A stretch of DNA of 64,000 nucleotides. Source: Rhodanobacteraceae bacterium (GTDB taxonomy: Bacteria; Pseudomonadota; Gammaproteobacteria; Xanthomonadales; Rhodanobacteraceae). The stretch spans positions 1,054,001 through 1,118,000 of the forward strand of contig CP126531.1 in NCBI GenBank assembly GCA_030167125.1, in the 5' to 3' direction. Made by a program: the position numbers and the translations under genes. Positions 3,462 through 14,302 of this stretch are shown here, in pieces. Position 1 is the stretch's first letter; each line of letters starts with the position of its first letter. The notes beneath the pieces were generated by a model. It worked only from the letters and a program-made list of their open reading frames with translations. It had not been told where the DNA came from and made no database searches.

Positions 3462-4877
3462 ATGTTGTGGGCCTGCATACTGCTGCCGCAGCTGGCGCTG
3501 GACGCCGTCCTCCGCCGTTTGCCTGATCCTTCCGCGCCGCTGGCGCTGGTCGGCGGACCCGCGCAGTTGCGCACCTTGCACGCGGTCAATCCGGCCGCCG
3601 CCGCAGCCGGCCTGCGCGCAGGCATGCGCCTGACCGCCGCGCACGCGCTGTTGTCCGATTTCGCGATGGTCGATTACGACCCGCAGGCCGAAGCGCACTG
3701 GCAACGGTTCCTTGCCGCTTGGGCTTATCGCCACAGTTCGCTGGTCAGTGCGCAGTGGCCGGGCTGCATCGTGCTGGAGGTGCGCGCGAGTTTCGGTCTG
3801 CTTGGACCGTGGCCGCGGATCGAAGCGCGGCTGCGCGCGGAACTCGCCGCGCTGGGATTCACGCATCGCATCGCGATGGCGCCGACGCCGCGCGCCGCGC
3901 GCGTGTTCGCCGGATTGCGCGATGGATTGGCGGTCGATCATCCGGCCGCGATGCAGGGATTGCTGGATCGCGTGCCGGTGCGCCGTGCATTGTTGCCCGA
4001 TGACGCGGGCGAGCGGCTGCACCGCATGGGCATCCGCGATCTGCGGGCGGTGCGCGCGTTGCCCACCGACAGCGTGCGCCGGCGTTTCGGCCTGCCGCTG
4101 CTCGAACATCTCGACCGGTTGTATGGCAGCGCGGACGATCCGCTGGCGTATTACGCGCCGCCCGATCACTTCGATACGCGGGTCGAACTGGAATGCGAGG
4201 TGGAGAGTCATGTCGCGCTGTTGTTCCCGCTGCGCCGGATGATCGGTGACCTGTGTACCTGCCTGTCGATCCGCGATGGCGGTGTGCAGCGCTTCGTGCT
4301 GCGGCTGGAACACGAGGCGGCGCACACCGATGTGGAAGTCGGCCTGCTCGCAGCGGAGCGCGAGCCGTCCATGTTGTTCGAGCTGACCCGCAGCCGGCTG
4401 GAGCGGGTGCAGCTCGACCGGCCCGTGGTGGCACTGCGGCTGCTGGCGCGGGAACTGCCGCCGTTCGTGCCGGCGACGCGGGATCTCTTCGACGTGCGCA
4501 TGCAGCAGTCGCTGCCGTGGCCGCAATTGCGCGAACGCCTGCGTGCCCGCCTCGGTGATACGGCGGTGTACCGGATTGCGCCGACCTGCGATCCGCGGCC
4601 GGAACGTGCGTGGCGGCGCGCGGAAGAAAACGCGAGCATCGATCGGGCGCCGATCCGTCCGCCGCGACCGCTGTGGTTGTTGCAGAAACCCATCCCGCTG
4701 CGCGATTCGCGCCTGCGCATCGTGTCGGGTCCGGAGCGTCTGGAAAGTGGCTGGTGGGATGGTGATGAGGCGCGACGCGATTACTACGTGTTGGAAACTT
4801 CGCAGGGTCAGCGCGCGTGGGCGTTCGCGCCGCCGGGCGAGCAGGGCGGCTGGATGCTGCACGGGTGGTTCGCGTGA
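3462..4877 (+). CDS. imuB: ImuB, Y-family polymerase-like hub of the mutasome
   Basis: A 471-residue Y-family-like protein. The first catalytic motif of DinB/UmuC enzymes (a D-x-D near the N-terminus) is replaced by [15 protein letters not shown], as in ImuB proteins, which have lost polymerase activity and act as an adaptor to the beta clamp, DnaE2 and ImuA. The helix-hairpin-helix region [20 protein letters not shown] (about 185-205) and the little-finger region after residue 230 are present. The C-terminal part (about 370-471) ends with [20 protein letters not shown], common in ImuB. Its stop overlaps the dnaE2 start (GTGA), indicating translational coupling. Confidence 0.9.
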
Positions 4878-7800
4878 GCGGCGATCTCGTGAACGGTGTG
4901 GCGCCGGATACGCCGGGCGCTCGCCCACCGCGCGCCTGGACGGTGGCGCAGTGGTTGAGCCGTCGCGCAGCCAACGACGCGAGTGTGTCCGGCGAGTTGC
5001 CGGCCTATGCAGAATTGCACTGCCTGTCCGACTTCTCGTTCTTGCGCGGCGCGGCCAGCGCGGAAGAACTGTTCCTGCGCGCCAGGCAATGCGGCTACGA
5101 GGCGCTGGCGATCACCGACGAGTGCTCGCTGGCCGGCATCGTGCGCGCGCTGGAAGCCTCGCGCGCCACTGGTATCAAACTGATCGTCGGCAGCGAGCTC
5201 ACGCTGGCCTGCGGCCTTCGCTTCGTGCTGCTGGTCGAGACGCAGACCGGCTATACACGGCTGTGCGAACTGATCACCGTCGCGCGACGCGCGGCGCGCA
5301 AGGGCGAGTACCGGTTGACACGCGAAGACGTGGCGCGCGTCCTTGCTGCACGTGCGGATGAAACATCCGAATGTGGTTTGTTCGCGTTGTGGCTGCCGTC
5401 GGCCGAGCCCGACGAAGCGCAGGGTCGATGGCTGCGCGCGCTGCTGGGCGAGCGTGCGCACCTCGCGGTGGAATTGCATCGCGAGCGCGACGATGCCGCG
5501 CGCCTGCGCCAGTTGCTCGCGCTGGCGTCGCGGCTGGACATGACGCCGGTCGCCGCGGGCGACGTGCACATGGACGTGCGCCGCCGCCGCGTGTTGCAGG
5601 ACACCATGACCGCGATCCGCCACAACACGCCGCTGGCGGATTGCGGCGCACACCTGTTCCGCAACGGCGAGCGTCATCTGCGCACGCGGCGCGCACTGGG
5701 CAACATCTATCCGCGCGCGTTGCTCGATGCGTCCGTGCAGTTGGCGCGCCGCTGCACCTTCCGGATGGAGGATGTGCACTACGCCTATCCGGCCGAGCTG
5801 GTGCCCGCAGGCCACACACCGACGAGCTGGCTGCGCGCGTTGACCGAAGCGGGAATGCGCAAGTGTTGGCCGGATGGCGTGCCGCCTGCCGTCGCTGCAC
5901 AGATCGAAACCGAACTGGCGCTGATCGCGGAACTCAGGTACGAGGCGTTCTTCCTCACCGTCGAGGACATCGTGCGCTTCGCCTGTTCGCGGGGAATCCT
6001 GTGCCAAGGACGCGGCTCCTCGGCGAACTCGGCGGTGTGTTTTGCGCTCGGCATCACGGCGGTCAATCCCGCCGAGAGCCGGCTGCTGATGGCGCGCTTC
6101 CTGTCACGCGAGCGCAACGAGCCGCCCGATATCGACGTCGATTTCGAGCACGAGCGCCGCGAGGAAGTGCTGCAATACGTCTACAAGAAATACGGCCGCG
6201 CGCGCGCGGCGCTGGCCGCGACCGTGATCCGCTACCGCGGCAAGAGCGCGGTGCGCGACGTGGCCAAGGCATTCGGCCTGCCGCCGGACCAGATCGCCTT
6301 GCTGGCCGATTGCTTCGGCTGGGGCAATGGCGAGGTGCCGATGGCACAACGCCTGCGCGAGGCCGGTTTCGATCCGGACAATCCTTTGATCGCGCGCGTA
6401 CTGGCGATCACCGCGCAGTTGCTTGGACATCCGCGGCACCTGTCGCAACACGTCGGCGGCTTTGTCATCAGCGATGCGCCGCTGTCCACCGTGGTGCCGG
6501 TGGAGAACGCGGCGATGGAAGATCGCACCATCATCCAGTGGGACAAGGATGATCTGGAGACGATGCAACTGCTGAAGGTTGATTGTCTCGCGCTCGGCAT
6601 GCTGACCTGCATCCGCAAGGCCATCGACCTGGTCGAGCGCCACCGCGGCTATCGCATCGACTTGGCGCAGTTGCCGTCCGGCGATCCGGCGACCTACGCC
6701 ATGATCCAGGCCGCCGATACCGTCGGCGTGTTCCAGATCGAATCGCGCGCGCAGATGAGCATGCTGCCGCGCCTGAAACCGGAGACGTTCTACGACCTGG
6801 TGATCGAAGTCGCGATCGTGCGGCCCGGCCCGATCCAGGGCGGCATGGTGCATCCCTACCTGCGGCGCAGGCAGGGCAGGGAACCGGTGGTGTATCCCTC
6901 GCCGGAAATCGAGGACATCCTCAAGCCCACGCTCGGCGTGCCGCTGTTCCAGGAACAGGTGATGGAACTGGTGATCCACGCCGGCTACTCGCCGGAGCAA
7001 GCCGATGGCTTGCGCCGTTCGATGGCCGCGTGGGGACGCGGCGGCGACATGGAACCACATCGCCTGCGCATCCGCCGGTTGATGGAGCGCAAGGGTTATT
7101 CCTCCGCGTTCATCGATCAGATCTTCGAGCAGATCAAGGGCTTCGGCTCTTATGGATTTCCGCAGTCGCATGCGGCCTCGTTCGCCAAGCTGGTCTACAT
7201 CAGTTGCTGGCTGAAGCGGCACGAGCCGGCCGCGTTCGCGTGCGCGCTGCTCAACGCGCAACCGATGGGTTTCTACTCGCCCAGCCAGATCGTGCAGGAC
7301 GCGCGTCGCGGCACAAGTGAGCGCAAGCCGATCGAAATTCGTCCGGTCGATGTGACCCGCAGCGACTGGGACAACATGCTTGAACAAGGCAGACTCGAAG
7401 GCGGTCATGCACGGCGCGGCGATGACGATGGCGGCCAGCCTGCGTTGCGCCTGGGCATGCGGCAGATCGCGGGACTGTCCGAGGCAATGGCGCGGGCGAT
7501 CGTCGCGGCGCGCGCGCAAGCGCCATTCCGCGACGTACGCGACCTGTGCCAACGCGCCGGACTGGACGAGAAGACGTGCCGGGTGCTGGCCGAAGCAGGT
7601 GCGCTGCAGGCGTTGGCGGGTCATCGCCATGCCGCGCGCTGGGCGGTGGCCGGCATCGAGCAGCGGCGTCCGCTGCTGCCCGGCAGTCCCGATGAGGACG
7701 CGGTGACGTTGCCGGCACCGATGTTGGGCGAGGATGTGTTGTCGGACTACCGCGCGCTTGGCCTGACACTGCAGGCGCATCCGCTGTCGCTGCTGCGCCA

Positions 7801-8140
7801 ACAGCTTCGGCAGCAGCGCCTGCTCGATTCCAGCCAACTGCGCGGTGTGCCGCATGGCCGGCAAGTCCGCGCGGCCGGCATCGTCACCCAACGCCAGCGT
7901 CCGGCTACCGCCAACGGCATCATCTTCGTGACGCTGGAAGACGAGCACGGCATGTTCAACATCGTGGTGCGGCCGGAGGTGGCGCTGCAGCAACGCAAGG
8001 CGTTGCTGGGCGCACGCCTGCTGGCCGTGCGCGGGCGCTGGGAGCACGTGGACGGCGTGCGGCACCTGATCGCGCGCGACCTGCACGACCTGAGCCACCT
8101 GCTCGGCGAACTGCACACCACCTCGCGCGACTTCCATTGA
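4874..8140 (+). CDS. dnaE2: DnaE2, error-prone DNA polymerase III alpha subunit
   Basis: The translesion polymerase of the ImuA-ImuB-DnaE2 system. The GTG at 4874, overlapping the imuB stop, is chosen over a longer frame reaching into imuB; it gives 1088 residues, normal for the family. Visible in order: N-terminal PHP domain ([27 protein letters not shown]), the palm with catalytic aspartates in [20 protein letters not shown], fingers ([20 protein letters not shown]), helix-hairpin-helix (about 855-885) and a C-terminal OB fold ([18 protein letters not shown]). Expected to be DNA-damage induced through LexA. Confidence 0.94.
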
Positions 8141-8142
8141 CC

Positions 8143-8733
8143 ATGCATGCGCTGTCCGCCCTGACCGACGACCTGTTCGCGCCGTCCATGCTGCGACTGG
8201 TCGACGATGCCGAAGGCGGCATCCGCTATTGGCCGCGTTTCGTCGATGCGGATACGGCGCAGGCATGGTTTGAACGCTTGCGGGCAGACATTGCGTGGTC
8301 TTCGCTGCAGCGGCCGATGTACGACCGCATCGTCGACGTGCCGCGACTGGTTGCCAGTTACGCAGTTGATGCATCGCCCAAAGCGCTTCCGCTACTCGAC
8401 ATGTTGGCGTGCGTACAGTCGATCGCGCCCGCGCCGTACACCCATGCCGGCATGAACTTCTATCGCGACGGCCGCGACAGCGTGGCCATGCACCACGACA
8501 AGCTGCACTCGCTGGCCGTTGGACAACCGATCACGCTGGTGTCGCTCGGTTCGACGCGCCGCATGTTGATCCGCGCCATCGGCGGAAAGCGCGAAACGAT
8601 CGCAATCGACCTCGAGCCCGGCAGCCTGCTGCGCATGAGCCACGCCTCACAACTCACGCATGAACACGGCATTCCGAAGACCCGGCGAGAGCAGCCGGCA
8701 CGAATCAGCGTGGCGTTTCGGGTGAGGGTGTGA
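8143..8733 (+). CDS. alkB: AlkB-like 2-oxoglutarate/Fe(II) dioxygenase
   Basis: A 196-residue AlkB-fold protein. The iron ligands H117 and D119 (MHHDKL) and the distal His in LTHEHGIPKT are present, followed by RISVAFR, which supplies the Arg pair that binds 2-oxoglutarate. AlkB enzymes remove methyl groups from 1-methyladenine and 3-methylcytosine in DNA or RNA. The ATG at 8143 lies two bases after the dnaE2 stop, so the gene ends the LexA-controlled operon and adds direct reversal of alkylation to translesion synthesis. An AlkB homologue with another substrate is possible; the operon context favours nucleic-acid repair. Confidence 0.85.
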   Translation: MHALSALTDDLFAPSMLRLVDDAEGGIRYWPRFVDADTAQAWFERLRADIAWSSLQRPMYDRIVDVPRLVASYAVDASPKALPLLDMLACVQSIAPAPYTHAGMNFYRDGRDSVAMHHDKLHSLAVGQPITLVSLGSTRRMLIRAIGGKRETIAIDLEPGSLLRMSHASQLTHEHGIPKTRREQPARISVAFRVRV

Positions 8734-8808
8734 GGCGGGGCAGACATCGGCGGACAGAGAACGGCGGCGGGAAGACTCGCGCCGTCTAGTGGCGGGGGGG
8801 GAATGTTC

Positions 8809-8974
8809 GGCCCATCCATGGGCCTCACCCCTCGCTGCGCTCGGGGCCAGCCTTCGGCTGTCCAAAATCGTTCTGACAATTTTGTACTCGCGCCATCCAT
8901 GGCGCTCGCCCTGCGCCGCTGCACGGCTCAGGGCCGCCTGCGGCGTCCAAAATCGGCTGTCCTGCCGATTTTGT
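8809..8974. repeat. Two tandem copies of a multi-hairpin intergenic element
   Basis: Copy 1 (8809-8884) and copy 2 (8890-8974) share the same order of parts: a CCATCCATGG-centred palindrome, one or two GC-rich hairpins, the word GTCCAAAATCG and an AAAAT/ATTTT hairpin ending in TTTTGT. The stems differ in sequence but remain paired: GGCCCAT/ATGGGCC in copy 1 against GCGCCAT/ATGGCGC in copy 2. This suggests that the folded form is conserved. No protein is encoded here. Confidence 0.7.
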
Positions 8975-9005
8975 CGAACGGGGCTCAATTCCGCACCCAT
9001 CTCTG

Positions 9006-9050
9006 CCAGACGCAAAAAAGCCGCCACGAGGGCGGCTCTTTTGCGTCTGG
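9006..9050. terminator. Strong bidirectional intrinsic terminator
   Basis: A long inverted repeat: CCAGACGCAAAA pairs with TTTTGCGTCTGG, and CCGCC pairs with GGCGG around ACGAG. A T run follows the inner stem on each strand. On the minus strand it directly follows the ssrA-like 3' end at 9048-9071, exactly as a native ssrA terminator would; on the plus strand it could also stop transcription from the mutasome operon. Confidence 0.8.
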
Positions 9051-9564: not shown

Positions 9565-12378
9565 TCAGAACTTGATCGCCCCCTGCAACATGACGTTGCT
9601 GGAGCTCTCGTGTGGGCCTTGTTCGCGCATGTAGCCAAGGTGCAACCCGAAGCTGCGGGTCGGCCACAATGACAGGCCGGAACGAAGGATCGCCATGTTG
9701 CGGGAAATGCCGATGCCCTCCACTGGCAGCCAGTTGTTGAAGCCGGTGAAGCTCGCGTCGAATACGTTGCCGTTCTGGTGCAATGCATGCTGCCAGCTTG
9801 CACTACCGTCAAAGGCCATTTGCATGCCGTTGGTGAGGCGCCAGCCGTGCACGGCACGCAAACCAAGCCCAGCCTGGAGGCGCTCTGCGATATGAGCATC
9901 GGCCTTGAGGCCATAACCCAAGCCACCCTGCTCGGCAAATCCGCCCAAGTCGAGACGCTGGTAACGCAGGTCAGCAAAGGGGGTGACTCGCATCGTGCCG
10001 AGGCGTAACTCGCGGCCGCCTTCAAATGCAACCGCAGCGTAGCGGCCCGTGGAGTAATTGCCGACCGTCGTGCCCAGCGCACCCAGCTGGAGCAGGCGCT
10101 GCATGTCTTCGCGATACCAGCCGCTCGCAATCTGTGCACTCGCATACCAGGGGCCGTTCGCCATACCGCCGTATATGGTGACGTTGTCCATCGAGGTGCG
10201 GTCGTGATCCCAAGCAGTGTCGAGTTGACCGAAACCCGCGCTCTGACCCACCGCAAAGCCCAGCAGTGCGTGTGCGCCGATGCGTGTGTCCGCGCCGGCC
10301 ATGCCACCGCTACTGCGGAAGGTCGCCCCTGCGTAACCGGTTTGCTGCAGGTTGCCCTGCCAGCCGAGATCGCTATACCAGACACCTGGCCGCGCCCGAC
10401 CACTCAACAGATCATCGAAATGCTCGAACAGTGCATCGCTTCGCGTATCGATTCCGTCGAACAGCATCGCGGCACTGGTCGCGTGCAATTGACCTGAGAG
10501 GCTTTGTAGCGTGGCGTGTGCGGCAGCCAGTGTCGCGCTGTGCTGGATCGCGCTGGCGCCTTGCAATACGGCCAATGCAGGGACGCCACCGGACGCCATC
10601 GTCGCGTTGATTGAATCGAATCCTGCCTGCACGCGCTGCGCACCGCTTACCGAAGCCGGATCCACGATGCCCATGGCTGCCGCGGTTTGCGTGACGTTGG
10701 TTTGCGTCAGCGCGACGTTCACTTGCGTGCCGGTGTAGGACAAGCTCCCGGTGTAGAACACGCCTGACGCAAATGTGAGCTGGCCGAATGAACCGGCCAC
10801 GTTATTCGCCGTCAGCAGGTTCTCGGTAGCCTTGACAATGTAGCCGGCGGCAGCCGCCAGCACGTTCATGGTGCCTGCGACATTGGCGGTGCCCTTTACT
10901 TGCAGCGGGTCGCCGAGTGCAACCGCGATCGTGCTGGACGCCCCGTCCGTGAGGTCGCCGTCGATGGTGAGTCCCTGCGCGGGCTTGCTGCCCTGGCTGA
11001 CTACGGTGCCATTGTTTGTCACGTCAGCATTGACGACGCCTGTCCCCGCAAGAGTGCCGCCCGCATCCACCGTGGTTGCAGAAGTGATCGAGCCGGTTAC
11101 AGCCAGCGCGCCGGATGCGATTTCCGTGGAGCCCATGTAGGTATCGACGCCCGACAGTGTCAGTGTGCCGGTGCCATTGACCTTGAGGCCGCCCGATCCG
11201 GAGATGTCGTTGGCGAACACAGAGTTCATGCCGACCGGAACCGGCACCAGAAATGGACCGAACTGCGGAAACGCGAATTGCGCCGGTCCCTTGATCGCCT
11301 TTGCCGCGTTCACCATGCCCCAGCCGAAAGTTGCGTTGGGTGTCTGATGGCTGCCGTCGTCGAGCGGCGTCGCGGTGGTCAGGACAGTGTCGGTGACATT
11401 TCCCGCGCTCATCCAGGGAAATGCCTGAAGCACCTGTGCGGCCACGCCGCTGATGATGGGTGCCGCGAACGAGGTGCCGACTCCGCCGCCGTTGAATACG
11501 GTGTTCGGCACGTTCGGCGTCGGCGTGAACACCACGCCCGGCGCACCGATGCACCATTGCGCGGCCACCCCGCAGGCGTTGGACGGTTCATCGGCGCCCT
11601 TGTAGAGGCCCGCCGGATTGCCGTTCGAATCGATCGCGATATTCACCACGGCCAGCCAGTTCGGCTGGAAACTCGGAATCCAGTACGGTAGGCCCGCATC
11701 CTGCCAAGGCTGGGTGTGGCCGTCGTTACCGGCCACCCATACGAGAATGATCCCCGCATTGACGGCGGGTTGGTAGATCGCCTGTACTAGCGGAATGTTG
11801 GGATCGTTCGGGCCGGTGAACTCGGTCAGCACGTTACCTTCACCCAGCGAGACGTTGATGACGCGCACCTGCTCGCTCACAAAATCATTGAAGTTGTTCG
11901 TATTCCACGTGCAGGGCGGATTACCTGTGGCCGCGCAAACCTGTTCGACATACAGACCGGTGTCCTGCGCGACACCACCGGGAAAGGTTTCGCCATTGTC
12001 GAACGGAATGACGCCCTGCGGCAGTCCGCCCAAGATGTCCGCGACCACCGTGCCGTGGCCGGTGGTGTCATTCGGCGTCTGGCTGCCATCCGGCAAGTAA
12101 CTCTTGAACCAGGCAATGCGGCCCTGCAGCGGTGGCGTGGTCGGATCCACACCAAAACCCATGATGCCGACCTTGACGCCTTTGCCTGTGAATCCCGCCG
12201 TCTGCGCTGTTTGCACACCGGTCGGAACCAGTTGGTTGAAAGTGGGATCGTAGCCGGCCGTGACCGGCGGATTCGGAGGACCGACCGTGCCGTGTATGCT
12301 TCCACCACCACCACAGCCCCCAAGCGAAAGGCCAACCGCAGCAGCGCCCACGAAGCACGTCATCACTGGTTTTTTCAT
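9565..12378 (-). CDS. Subtilisin-like (S8) autotransporter with lipoprotein-type leader
   Basis: A 937-residue type V secreted protein. The ATG at 12378 (AGGG just upstream) gives a signal peptide with lipobox-like LGGC (C22) and a Gly run. The S8 domain (about 60-390) has the His motif TGHGTVVAD (H108) and the Ser motif GTSFAAP (S303). The usual DTG is replaced by GFG: KVGIMGFGVD has Gly74 where catalytic Asp is expected. A passenger-associated repeat follows (LTLSGVDTYMGSTEIASGAL, about 425-445), then a C-terminal barrel of about 280 residues (from WYSDLGWQGN) ending in the expected aromatic residue (GAIKF). Such proteins cleave themselves or host/surface proteins outside the cell; activity here is doubtful because of Gly74. 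Confidence 0.88.
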   Translation of the reverse strand: MKKPVMTCFVGAAAVGLSLGGCGGGGSIHGTVGPPNPPVTAGYDPTFNQLVPTGVQTAQTAGFTGKGVKVGIMGFGVDPTTPPLQGRIAWFKSYLPDGSQTPNDTTGHGTVVADILGGLPQGVIPFDNGETFPGGVAQDTGLYVEQVCAATGNPPCTWNTNNFNDFVSEQVRVINVSLGEGNVLTEFTGPNDPNIPLVQAIYQPAVNAGIILVWVAGNDGHTQPWQDAGLPYWIPSFQPNWLAVVNIAIDSNGNPAGLYKGADEPSNACGVAAQWCIGAPGVVFTPTPNVPNTVFNGGGVGTSFAAPIISGVAAQVLQAFPWMSAGNVTDTVLTTATPLDDGSHQTPNATFGWGMVNAAKAIKGPAQFAFPQFGPFLVPVPVGMNSVFANDISGSGGLKVNGTGTLTLSGVDTYMGSTEIASGALAVTGSITSATTVDAGGTLAGTGVVNADVTNNGTVVSQGSKPAQGLTIDGDLTDGASSTIAVALGDPLQVKGTANVAGTMNVLAAAAGYIVKATENLLTANNVAGSFGQLTFASGVFYTGSLSYTGTQVNVALTQTNVTQTAAAMGIVDPASVSGAQRVQAGFDSINATMASGGVPALAVLQGASAIQHSATLAAAHATLQSLSGQLHATSAAMLFDGIDTRSDALFEHFDDLLSGRARPGVWYSDLGWQGNLQQTGYAGATFRSSGGMAGADTRIGAHALLGFAVGQSAGFGQLDTAWDHDRTSMDNVTIYGGMANGPWYASAQIASGWYREDMQRLLQLGALGTTVGNYSTGRYAAVAFEGGRELRLGTMRVTPFADLRYQRLDLGGFAEQGGLGYGLKADAHIAERLQAGLGLRAVHGWRLTNGMQMAFDGSASWQHALHQNGNVFDASFTGFNNWLPVEGIGISRNMAILRSGLSLWPTRSFGLHLGYMREQGPHESSSNVMLQGAIKF

Positions 12379-12489
12379 ACTGCGCCCTCGCGAAACAACT
12401 TGAACCGGTCGACTAACAGCCGTCCTAACCACTGCATCGTCGTCATCGCGTGCCGCTTGATTTATACAGTGGAGTGTCGGGGATGCGAT

Positions 12490-13089
12490 CTACGGGGCCT
12501 TCAGCTGTTGCCACATCTCGCGCTGAATGCGCCACCCGTGGTCGGCGCTCCGATGCAGCAGCAGCAAAAGCCGTCCGCCACCATCGAAGGGCGGCCTTCC
12601 ATCGGCGAACGTCACCAACTGGTGTTCGTCACACCACTCGGAACCCCAATCGCCGGATGTGCGGACGTCATGGCAGGTCAGCACAAATTGCTGCATGCGG
12701 GCGCCGCGGAGTTGGCTGTCCACACTTGCCAAGAATTGTGCGATCGCGGGCTTGCCCTCCATGGCATGCGTATCCGGCAGCAAATTTGTGCCGTCCTCCT
12801 CCCAGAGCTCCAAGGTCGCCCCGTAGTCCATGCCACGGGTTGCAGACCAGAGCATGCGGTTGAATGCGTGGATGGTCCGATCCGCACCGTCAATCCGTTT
12901 ATTCGTCAATCCGGCTTGTTGCGCGGTCTGCCCGCCGATGGGGATCAATTGATTGGAGGTCGGGTCATATGCCGGAGAGCTCGGGCGCGACGACGCGACA
13001 CTGCTGTGCAGGCTGCTGCTCCCGCCGCACCCGGCAAGTCCGATGTACAGCGTCGACGCTATAGCGAATCCCATGACATACTTTTTCAT
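12490..13089 (-). CDS. Lipoprotein joining an autotransporter-like leader to a SnoaL/DUF4440-like domain
   Basis: A 199-residue predicted lipoprotein from the ATG at 13089, with lipobox LAGC (C21). Its first 65 or so residues match the leader of the neighbouring autotransporter: both begin MKK-VM, carry CGG, then YDPT-NQL-P-G-QTAQ-AG-T-K. After that, instead of a protease, comes a domain of about 130 residues (RTIHAFNRMLWSATRGMDYG to HGWRIQREMWQQL) whose pattern, a helix pair then beta strands ending in a W-I--E-W element, resembles SnoaL/DUF4440 NTF2-like folds. Function unknown; the NTF2 assignment is inference from pattern. It looks like a partial duplication that gained a new domain. Confidence 0.7.
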   Translation of the reverse strand: MKKYVMGFAIASTLYIGLAGCGGSSSLHSSVASSRPSSPAYDPTSNQLIPIGGQTAQQAGLTNKRIDGADRTIHAFNRMLWSATRGMDYGATLELWEEDGTNLLPDTHAMEGKPAIAQFLASVDSQLRGARMQQFVLTCHDVRTSGDWGSEWCDEHQLVTFADGRPPFDGGGRLLLLLHRSADHGWRIQREMWQQLKAP

Positions 13090-13141
13090 TCTGCGTACGC
13101 GCGATTGACCGCCACGTGCCGCATTCCTCCGGTTCTGATCA

Positions 13142-14302
13142 CTACGGAATCCACAGGAAGCCATGGTTCAATCCCGTGGCATCGGTCCACCAACCGGTCA
13201 CTTCACCTCCATCGTTATTGGTTGTCGGGCGCGTTCCCTGATTGAAGCCGATGCCCGCGTCTGGCGCATCGAAGGTCGCGATGTAGCCATTCCCGAAACG
13301 CTCGAAACCGTGGTTCACGTTCTCGGCGTCGACATATTCACCTGCGACGGCGCCGAACAGGTTGATCGAGAAAGGATTGGTGCCCTGGAACGTGGCCTTG
13401 CCGCCCTGCGGCACGCTGAACGAGCTGAATCGTCCATTTGGTTGACGCAGGAAGCCGTGCCAGACGCTGGTGGTGTCAAGGAAGTATCCGGTGATGACGC
13501 CTTGCGGATTGATGCTCGCCACAATCGTTGCCTCGTAGGCGCCGGGCGCGTCGAACGTCGTGAGCTTTCCTTGTCTGTCGCGCACGAAGCCGTGATAGTT
13601 GAAGTTCGAATCCTCATAGAAACCAGCGACTGTTCCAGTCGGGGTCAGGCACGTCTCCGTACAGACGTCCGTGAAGATCGATCCGGGCGGATCGAACGAG
13701 GAGATCGCGCCGGATCGCGAGCGAAGGAAACCGTGGCCGAAGTTGTTCGGGTCGAAATAGATGCCTGCGATTTCGCCGAGCAGGTTGATGTCCCAGGCGT
13801 AAGTGCCTTGGAAGACGCCAGTGCCGGCGCCCGGCACGTCGAACGTGAAAATGGAGCCATCAGGATTGCGGATGTAGCTGTGCTGCTGGTCGTTGGCCGG
13901 GTCAGTAAAGTTGCCCACGATCACTCCGAAGTCGTTGATCTGGTAAGCGTAGGTGCCCGGGCCGGTGCCGCCGCCTGGCGGATCGAAGGAAATGAATTGC
14001 CCGCCGGGATTAAGCAGGAAGCCGTGCTGGGTTCCGTTGCCATCGGTGTAGTAGCCGACGATTTGGCCCCAGTTGTTGTTGCTGTATGCAAACGTTCCGC
14101 AGTTCGTGCCGCAGGCAGGAGAAACCGCAGTGACTGCGCCGGGCGCATCGAATTCGATGAGCCGGCCTTGACGCCTGTTATAGGAATTCCCTGCATTTTG
14201 TGAGATTGAGGCACCCTGCGCCACGAATGTGGCAACCAGGCAAGCCATGGCCAGCGACGTTTTCCGGAGCGATGCGAAGTTGGTTGGTTTGGGGATACGC
14301 AT
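13142..14302 (-). CDS. Secreted HAF-type tandem-repeat protein
   Basis: A 386-residue protein with an N-terminal signal region (SLAMACLVATFVAQGASIS) and about six tandem units of roughly 55 residues. Each unit combines G-I-G-Y-D (for example GQIVGYYTDGNGTQHGFLL) with a turn reading G--.-FD-PGA. This is the pattern of HAF-repeat extracellular proteins, probably a beta-propeller or beta-sheet array. Role unknown. It lies in the same orientation as the lipoprotein and autotransporter genes, 52 bases from the lipoprotein, so the three may form an exported-protein block. A divergent promoter region of 135 bp separates it from the regulator gene. Confidence 0.75.
   Translation of the reverse strand: MRIPKPTNFASLRKTSLAMACLVATFVAQGASISQNAGNSYNRRQGRLIEFDAPGAVTAVSPACGTNCGTFAYSNNNWGQIVGYYTDGNGTQHGFLLNPGGQFISFDPPGGGTGPGTYAYQINDFGVIVGNFTDPANDQQHSYIRNPDGSIFTFDVPGAGTGVFQGTYAWDINLLGEIAGIYFDPNNFGHGFLRSRSGAISSFDPPGSIFTDVCTETCLTPTGTVAGFYEDSNFNYHGFVRDRQGKLTTFDAPGAYEATIVASINPQGVITGYFLDTTSVWHGFLRQPNGRFSSFSVPQGGKATFQGTNPFSINLFGAVAGEYVDAENVNHGFERFGNGYIATFDAPDAGIGFNQGTRPTTNNDGGEVTGWWTDATGLNHGFLWIP

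Follow-up and report, generated by a model that had tools for sequence, protein, structure and literature searches.

The window analysed here, a DNA stretch of 64,000 nucleotides from a Rhodanobacteraceae bacterium, contains two tandem copies of a four-hairpin element of about 75–95 nt each at positions 8805–8975. On the minus strand, to which all element coordinates refer, the hairpins of each copy follow in the order hp4, hp3, hp2 and hpA. Our covariance model of the element, R1, which was trained on the pattern CATCC[AT]TG, matched copy 1 (8805–8886) with 48.1 bits (E = 6.3e-7 in its own genome) and copy 2 (8886–8975) with 77.3 bits (E = 3.7e-13 in its own genome). According to sequence and fold, copy 1 consists of hpA at 8809–8824 (GGCCCATCCATGGGCC, with the hexaloop ATGGAT and a closing C-G pair, corresponding to CANGGANG), hp2 at 8828–8846, hp3 at 8848–8860 with a C(GAA)G triloop on the minus strand, and an imperfect hp4 at 8863–8884 (CAAAATCG..CAATTTTG), whose degenerate loop has lost its GGA and reads GAA instead. 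Copy 2 contains hpA at 8890–8905 (GCGCCATCCATGGCGC, with the same ATGGAT hexaloop in CANGGANG form), an extended hp2 at 8908–8934, hp3 at 8935–8945, assigned by sequence and showing a C(GCA)G triloop on the minus strand, and hp4 at 8948–8973 (CAAAATCGGC..GCCGATTTTG) with the minus-strand loop AGGACA. It is flanked at 8973–8979 on the minus strand by GTTCGAC, which resembles the T-arm edge of tRNA-linked copies described below; at this edge GTTCGA is preceded by CCCC, while the other end shows ATTCC only.

A hairpin with T-rich arms of 20 nt (inverted repeat, 95%) at 9006–9050 is, judging by its sequence, likely an intrinsic terminator; it separates the element from the convergent minus-strand gene, so that the window copies may fall past the transcript end of that gene. 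Relative to the nearer gene the GGA-bearing strand runs antisense, and it is located beyond the likely terminator of the other gene. We ruled out that the element itself is an intrinsic terminator, because no T-run follows the hairpins of the window copies and the terminator-like hairpin is separate from them. A known Rfam family was rejected as well, since tmRNA alone reaches its gathering cut-off in the window; the 64 kb contain this tmRNA and no tRNA gene. By eye, the stretch 4817–8733 shows a DnaE2-like polymerase ORF with an AlkB-like ORF directly after it; within the genus, relatives of the latter are diverged and occur in only 4 of 16 genomes, its own among them. A further ORF at 12490–13164 resembles by eye the neighbouring autotransporter-like ORF (9565–12432) at its start but has an unrelated domain at its end, and is perhaps a gene fusion following duplication.

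The earlier note had proposed that the two copies keep the same hairpins despite differing stems, one of which is looser, and that the paired substitutions suggest selected folding, such as that of an RNA or of a site recognised by a protein. We located the pairs of hpA and hp4 in both copies, hp4 being imperfect in copy 1, and found that hp2 and hp3, two middle hairpins absent from the note, are likewise kept in both. On the minus strand, the folds reached z-scores of −4.76 for copy 1 and −5.09 for copy 2, and in each case none of 200 dinucleotide shuffles was as good; the plus strand gave −2.11 (8 of 200 shuffles as good) and −4.66 (0 of 200), respectively. The check suggested in the note, a covariance model built from genomic copies, revealed strong covariation of the stems. 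In an alignment of 69 R1 matches, which is fitted to the model R1, 97.2% of the pair cells were standard pairs, compared with 82.1% after shuffling and at most 42.8% after sliding, and 16 of the 21 pairs showed changes on both sides. A second alignment, A1, comprised 31 copies picked by the rule of at least three further hpA pairs around CATCC[AT]TG and an hp4 stem of at least six pairs with TCC in the loop. RNAalifold predicted 18 pairs for A1, 12 of them with both-side changes, and under the 21-pair structure 95.3% of the cells were paired, a share that fell to 76.5% on shuffling and to 41.0% or less on sliding. Because A1 was picked by hpA and hp4, the pairing of these stems is partly selected, whereas hp3, a helix unused for picking, was still paired in 96.8% of the cells; one hp3 pair occurred as G-C in 15 copies, C-G in 14, A-U in one and another combination in one. 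The note had named unpaired random stem changes in other copies as evidence against selected folding, but this refutation fails because the stems of other copies change in pairs in both A1 and the R1-match alignment. The folding claim is thus supported, and the fold and stems of the element are confirmed.

A BLAST-like search of the own genome detected 19 places, and R1 yielded at least 33 matches at E ≤ 0.01 with the first 150 of 6888 candidates scored. With 120 candidates scored per genome, so that all counts are lower bounds, 35 of 41 genomes contained R1 matches at E ≤ 1e-3: at least 10–82 copies in each of 16 genus genomes, at least 0–23 in nine other genomes of the family and at least 0–7 in 16 genomes of the order. 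A 23-base pattern retrieved 89 stretches from the contig database, whose carriers include Rudaea, Dokdonella, Thermomonas, Lysobacter soli, several Microbulbifer and MAGs under other labels.

The closest known relative of the element is RtT RNA (RF00391; rttR of the E. coli tyrT operon), which has reportedly been known since Bosl and Kersten, 1991, and for which we know of no settled role to date. Both have the same hairpin order and share CCCGAAGGG at hp2 and the frame C/U-GA-hpA-GA-G/A; in the element, hpA is framed by a C-G or U-A pair with GA steps on either side. The tyrT operon of E. coli K-12 contains four RtT matches and reads in the order GGTTCGA, hairpins, CCCGAAGGG(T/C)GA, hairpin, (C/U)GA(A/G)T and AATCC, and both RtT and the tRNA-linked copies of the element lie between the GGTTCGA and AATCC of a T-arm. 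They differ in that most element copies lie away from tRNA genes, and in the outer loops, which carry GGA in the element of this genus but not in E. coli RtT, although E. coli has CsrA. The RtT model gave no match to the window copies, neither at the gathering cut-off nor at E ≤ 1. Its best match in the own genome (612562–612715), which overlaps an R1 match, scored 36.3 bits against a cut-off of 45, which was exceeded in three of 41 relatives; 17 of these genomes had matches at E ≤ 1e-3. Sub-threshold RtT matches were also obtained by cmscan of the element copies at tRNA genes. Extended to 369 gammaproteobacterial genomes, the model matched 66 genomes from 57 of 272 genera (23 above cut-off), while among 14 control genomes E. 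coli was the only one matched. Conversely, R1 matched 16 of 20 RtT-model loci of the relatives at E ≤ 1e-3, and E. coli only at E 0.04–0.09. The pair framing hpA was never broken in an alignment (A3) of 21 RtT-like sequences, most of which lack GGA loops, where it occurred as U-A in 12, C-G in seven and U-G in two, and the same columns of A1 (n = 31) read C-G in 27 and U-A in four copies. Two features by which we recognised RtT, the order of the hairpins and the pair that covaries around hpA, are therefore both present. R2, a model of only five pairs made from 21 RtT-like sequences hand-picked out of 65 RtT matches (including L366 with its C(GGA)G triloop), matched 13 copies of the own genome at E < 0.01 and left the window copies unmatched at E ≤ 1. 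From these sequence comparisons we conclude that the element and RtT are homologous through intermediates. Because the RtT model does not match them, the window copies are filed as RtT-like and not as RtT members; their identity as a dispersed RtT-like element is well supported, and the family of dispersed copies, with its fold and its relation to RtT, is solid.

Where copies are linked to tRNAs, they lie within the T-arm, between GGTTCGA and AATCC. By pattern, GGTTCGA occurs at the element edge in 13 of 199 copies. Joining the flanks restores a tRNA in one case only, that of locus L086, where the element lies in the T-loop of a complete tRNA-Ser copy that neighbours an intact tRNA-Ser; the outer loops of this element copy lack GGA. 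A tRNA gene is found no more than 400 nt away from 26 of 199 copies, 24 of which are on the same strand; excluding six copies from csrA loci that had been retrieved deliberately, the numbers are 20 of 193, with 18 on the same strand. In five of 16 genus genomes, some of which have short csrA contigs, the element lies between csrA and tRNA-Ser in sense orientation to both (E < 1e-5), and the corresponding locus of genome G001 gave only a weak R1 match (E = 0.006). Each of these elements is preceded by a 5' portion of tRNA-Ser, joined at GGGTTCGA or a close variant of it, which is eroded in G004. We rejected a link of the element to csrA as such, since it sits there in a tRNA-Ser copy and the tRNA-Ser neighbourhood explains the proximity. 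A second array, of GGCANGGATGCC and/or ACCANGGATGGT-like hairpins, was also noticed in the csrA-tRNA loci L321, L329, L332, L334 and L335; it comes after the 5' part of a tRNA-Ser or tRNA-Arg that breaks off in the D-arm, and lies just upstream of the intact tRNA. Another arrangement was seen at L027, where three tandem copies about 180 nt apart lie downstream of tRNA-Gln, each flanked by tRNA-3'-like sequence. According to PMC4986893, the RtTs of A. pleuropneumoniae sit upstream of tRNA genes and give Northern signals.

Hairpins of CGTC-type REPs host 13 of 199 copies according to a loose pattern that plainly misassigned one of them, L303, and some copies lie in other inverted-repeat hosts. 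Of 199 copies, 72 carried ATCC no more than 4 nt beyond the 3' edge and 23 carried ATCG there, on account of which we hypothesize a preferred target site GA/ATCC. Inverted pairs of elements about 38–47 nt apart, reminiscent of REP dimers, were seen at L296, L294, L303, L308 and L317. The element resembles the GTAG- and CGTC-tagged REPs/BIMEs (PMC3733652) in copy number, palindromes, inverted pairs and downstream location, but has four different hairpins instead of one. In such REPs an unpaired GTAG or CGTC tag marks one end of a palindrome of 20–40 bp; neither tag was found at the element edges, which read GAC(T) and GAG(T) in the flank list.

The orientation relative to genes, which were predicted with a purpose-made gene caller, was analysed for 193 copies remaining after removal of exact duplicates. 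Between tandem genes, the GGA strand was sense in 74 and antisense in 33 cases (p = 9e-5); 57 copies lay between convergent and 11 between divergent genes, three inside a gene and 15 at an edge. The sense:antisense bias was significant on its own only in the named set (39:11), as the genus loci (60 extra) gave 26:16 (p = 0.16) and the own genome 9:6 (p = 0.61). Divergent regions were avoided, with 11 of 175 element copies against 74 of 347 background regions, which are intergenic stretches no shorter than 130 nt from these loci. Because of the sense bias and the relation to RtT, we favour RNA over single-stranded DNA as the selected agent.

The outer hairpins hpA and hp4 both expose GGA on one strand in this genus. 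The hpA loop was CANGGANG in 65 of the 69 matches of R1, whose training pattern includes this loop, and in 72 of 105 sites anchored by hp3 and hp2, a set partly retrieved via the pattern CATCCATG, of which 25 had no hairpin by our rule and eight another loop. Within CANGGANG, the first N of the R1 matches was T in 37, A in 14, G in eight and C in six copies, with no compensating change, and the second N was T or C. The apex therefore behaves as a hexaloop ANGGAN and not as a longer stem. Picking hp4 by its stem alone, we found a hairpin of at least seven pairs in the expected stretch of 67 out of 87 copies, and GGA in or beside the loop in 53 of these 67, compared with 17 of 218 long hairpins from 3910 control windows. 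Read on the plus-like strand, the middle hairpins of 87 distinct pattern-anchored copies mostly had the form C(TNC)G, with the triloops TTC (43), TGC (34), TCC (4) and TAC (2); the opposite strand shows C(GNA)G. The element thus carries the CANGGANG apical hexaloop that we used to recognise CsrA/RsmA ligands and that is described in PMC4894983 as a high-affinity target of CsrA/RsmE. Outside the elements, too, hairpins of at least 6 bp with ANGGAN hexaloops lay mostly between genes: in 464 kb of the own genome (the window and 20 stretches), 15 were intergenic and five intragenic, compared with three and 13 for nine pooled control loops (p = 0.002), from which ANCCAN (three intergenic, two intragenic) was excluded since it represents these hairpins as read from the opposite strand. 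At L051 (7106–7185), hpA reads GGTACAAGGATGTACC, which we take to be equal to the CsrA SELEX consensus RUACARGGAUGU. At L147 (7732 and 9868), L154 (961), L155 (12030) and L157 (971) we noticed repeats of a small hairpin, GCGATCANGGANGATCGC, in which both N vary; some of them lie in divergent intergenic regions.

Among RtT-model matches, which were not selected for GGA, the two outer loops tend to be of the same type. A fixed rule classified 50 of 65 matches at both outer hairpins and gave GGA in both for 18, in neither for 25 and mixed types for seven (Fisher 1.4e-7, with species not independent, and with L338, L343, L365, L397 and L405 kept as computed although misassigned on inspection by eye); an RNAfold version classed 60 matches as 22 both, 26 neither and 12 mixed. 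Such a both-or-neither distribution is predicted if a CsrA dimer bridges the two loops, and equally for any agent requiring both loops. A csrA gene was found in 39 of the 41 relatives; a query of 59 genomes, nearly all of them RtT-positive, detected it in 52. Seven RtT-positive genomes, some of them incomplete MAGs (G253 is 77% complete), yielded no csrA; GGA-type loops are present in G162, G234 and G253 and not in G033, G115, G298 and G317. Because three of these seven carry GGA-type loops, csrA does not predict the loop type, and a dependence on CsrA is not supported by these genomes.

The reading we prefer, to which we assign a probability of about 0.4, is a mobile, transcript-borne RNA module that would act as a CsrA ligand in some lineages, as suggested by its loop sequences. 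Copies would be transcribed within mRNA tails or tRNA operon transcripts, the GGA loops of both outer hairpins, with hpA as CANGGANG, would jointly hold one CsrA/RsmA dimer in this genus, and the transcript would work as a small ligand of CsrA, with the effect either of titrating the protein or of marking the mRNA to which the transcript belongs. Like CsrA-binding sRNAs of the CsrB and RsmX/Y/Z type, the element combines several GGA-loop hairpins in a short RNA. A stable-RNA operon origin is also seen in E. coli for RrB, one of the sRNAs RrA/B/F from rRNA operons that bind CsrA via GGA, as stated in PMC8144298. Unlike either group, the element is multi-copy and would be embedded in other transcripts. 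The Rfam models for RsmY (19.4 bits, E = 0.74, at the window locus) and rsmX (23.6 bits at L027) stayed far under their cut-offs. Counted against the CsrA reading are the loop types, which csrA absence does not track, the confinement of a significant orientation bias to one subset, the inverted pairs about 40–47 nt apart, which leave one copy antisense, the absence of GGA from the outer loops of E. coli RtT and of the L086 copy, and the position of the GGA strand in the window, antisense to one gene and past the likely terminator of the other.

The main rival, which we consider somewhat unlikely, is a selfish REP- or MITE-like DNA element whose hairpins, as single-stranded DNA, would be the target of a RAYT or an IS200/IS605-like transposase, so that loop conservation and the site preference near GA/ATCC would reflect transposase recognition. 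It would account for the high copy number, the REP-dimer-like inverted pairs, the hairpins forming both edges, the many hosts with GA and ATCC at these edges and the middle loops, for the most part C(GNA)G when read on the GGA strand. C(GNA)G loops are extra stable in DNA. The location between tandem and convergent genes is also that of REPs, according to PMC3733652. However, a search for the transposase Y1_Tnp at E ≤ 1e-3 found none in G012, G013 and G014, which have at least 67, 82 and 44 copies, and the 20 Y1_Tnp loci listed contained no R1 match at E ≤ 0.05. No association with RAYT was thus found, the repeat flanking the Y1_Tnp gene in 0 of these 20 loci. Moreover, the uncompensated variation of both N of CANGGANG fits a hexaloop and not a plain palindrome. 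Selfish mobility is compatible with the CsrA ligand reading; repeat spread and predicted CsrA binding are separate properties.

Less probable still is a generic 3'-end structure, an mRNA stabiliser or transcription attenuator in which loop identity matters little. The downstream position and stable folds agree with it, and the rtT-like elements of Enterobacteria, which belong to the BIMEs, have been proposed as attenuators in PMC2965389, but the loops are conserved more than the stems and the hairpins in the window lack a following T-run. Chance palindromes or two unrelated hairpins, for which nothing more than the high G+C content speaks, are refuted by the shuffling result, at least 33 genome copies and the covariation.

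Our search of the open-access literature found no paper joining RtT or REPs with CsrA sites. In a wider and rather doubtful interpretation, RtT may represent one branch of a mobile RNA element that spans the class and lodges in REPs and in the T-loops of tRNA copies; the outer hairpins of this element would have been jointly converted to CsrA sites in several lineages, forming a distributed CsrA sponge. RtT would thereby gain a concrete candidate role, based on its class-wide matches, dispersed-repeat relatives and mostly paired CsrA-type loops, and a route from tRNA-operon RNAs to genome-wide repeats is suggested. If this is true, mRNA tails and tRNA spacers throughout the genome would constitute a CsrA sponge tied to the output of stable RNA and mRNA.
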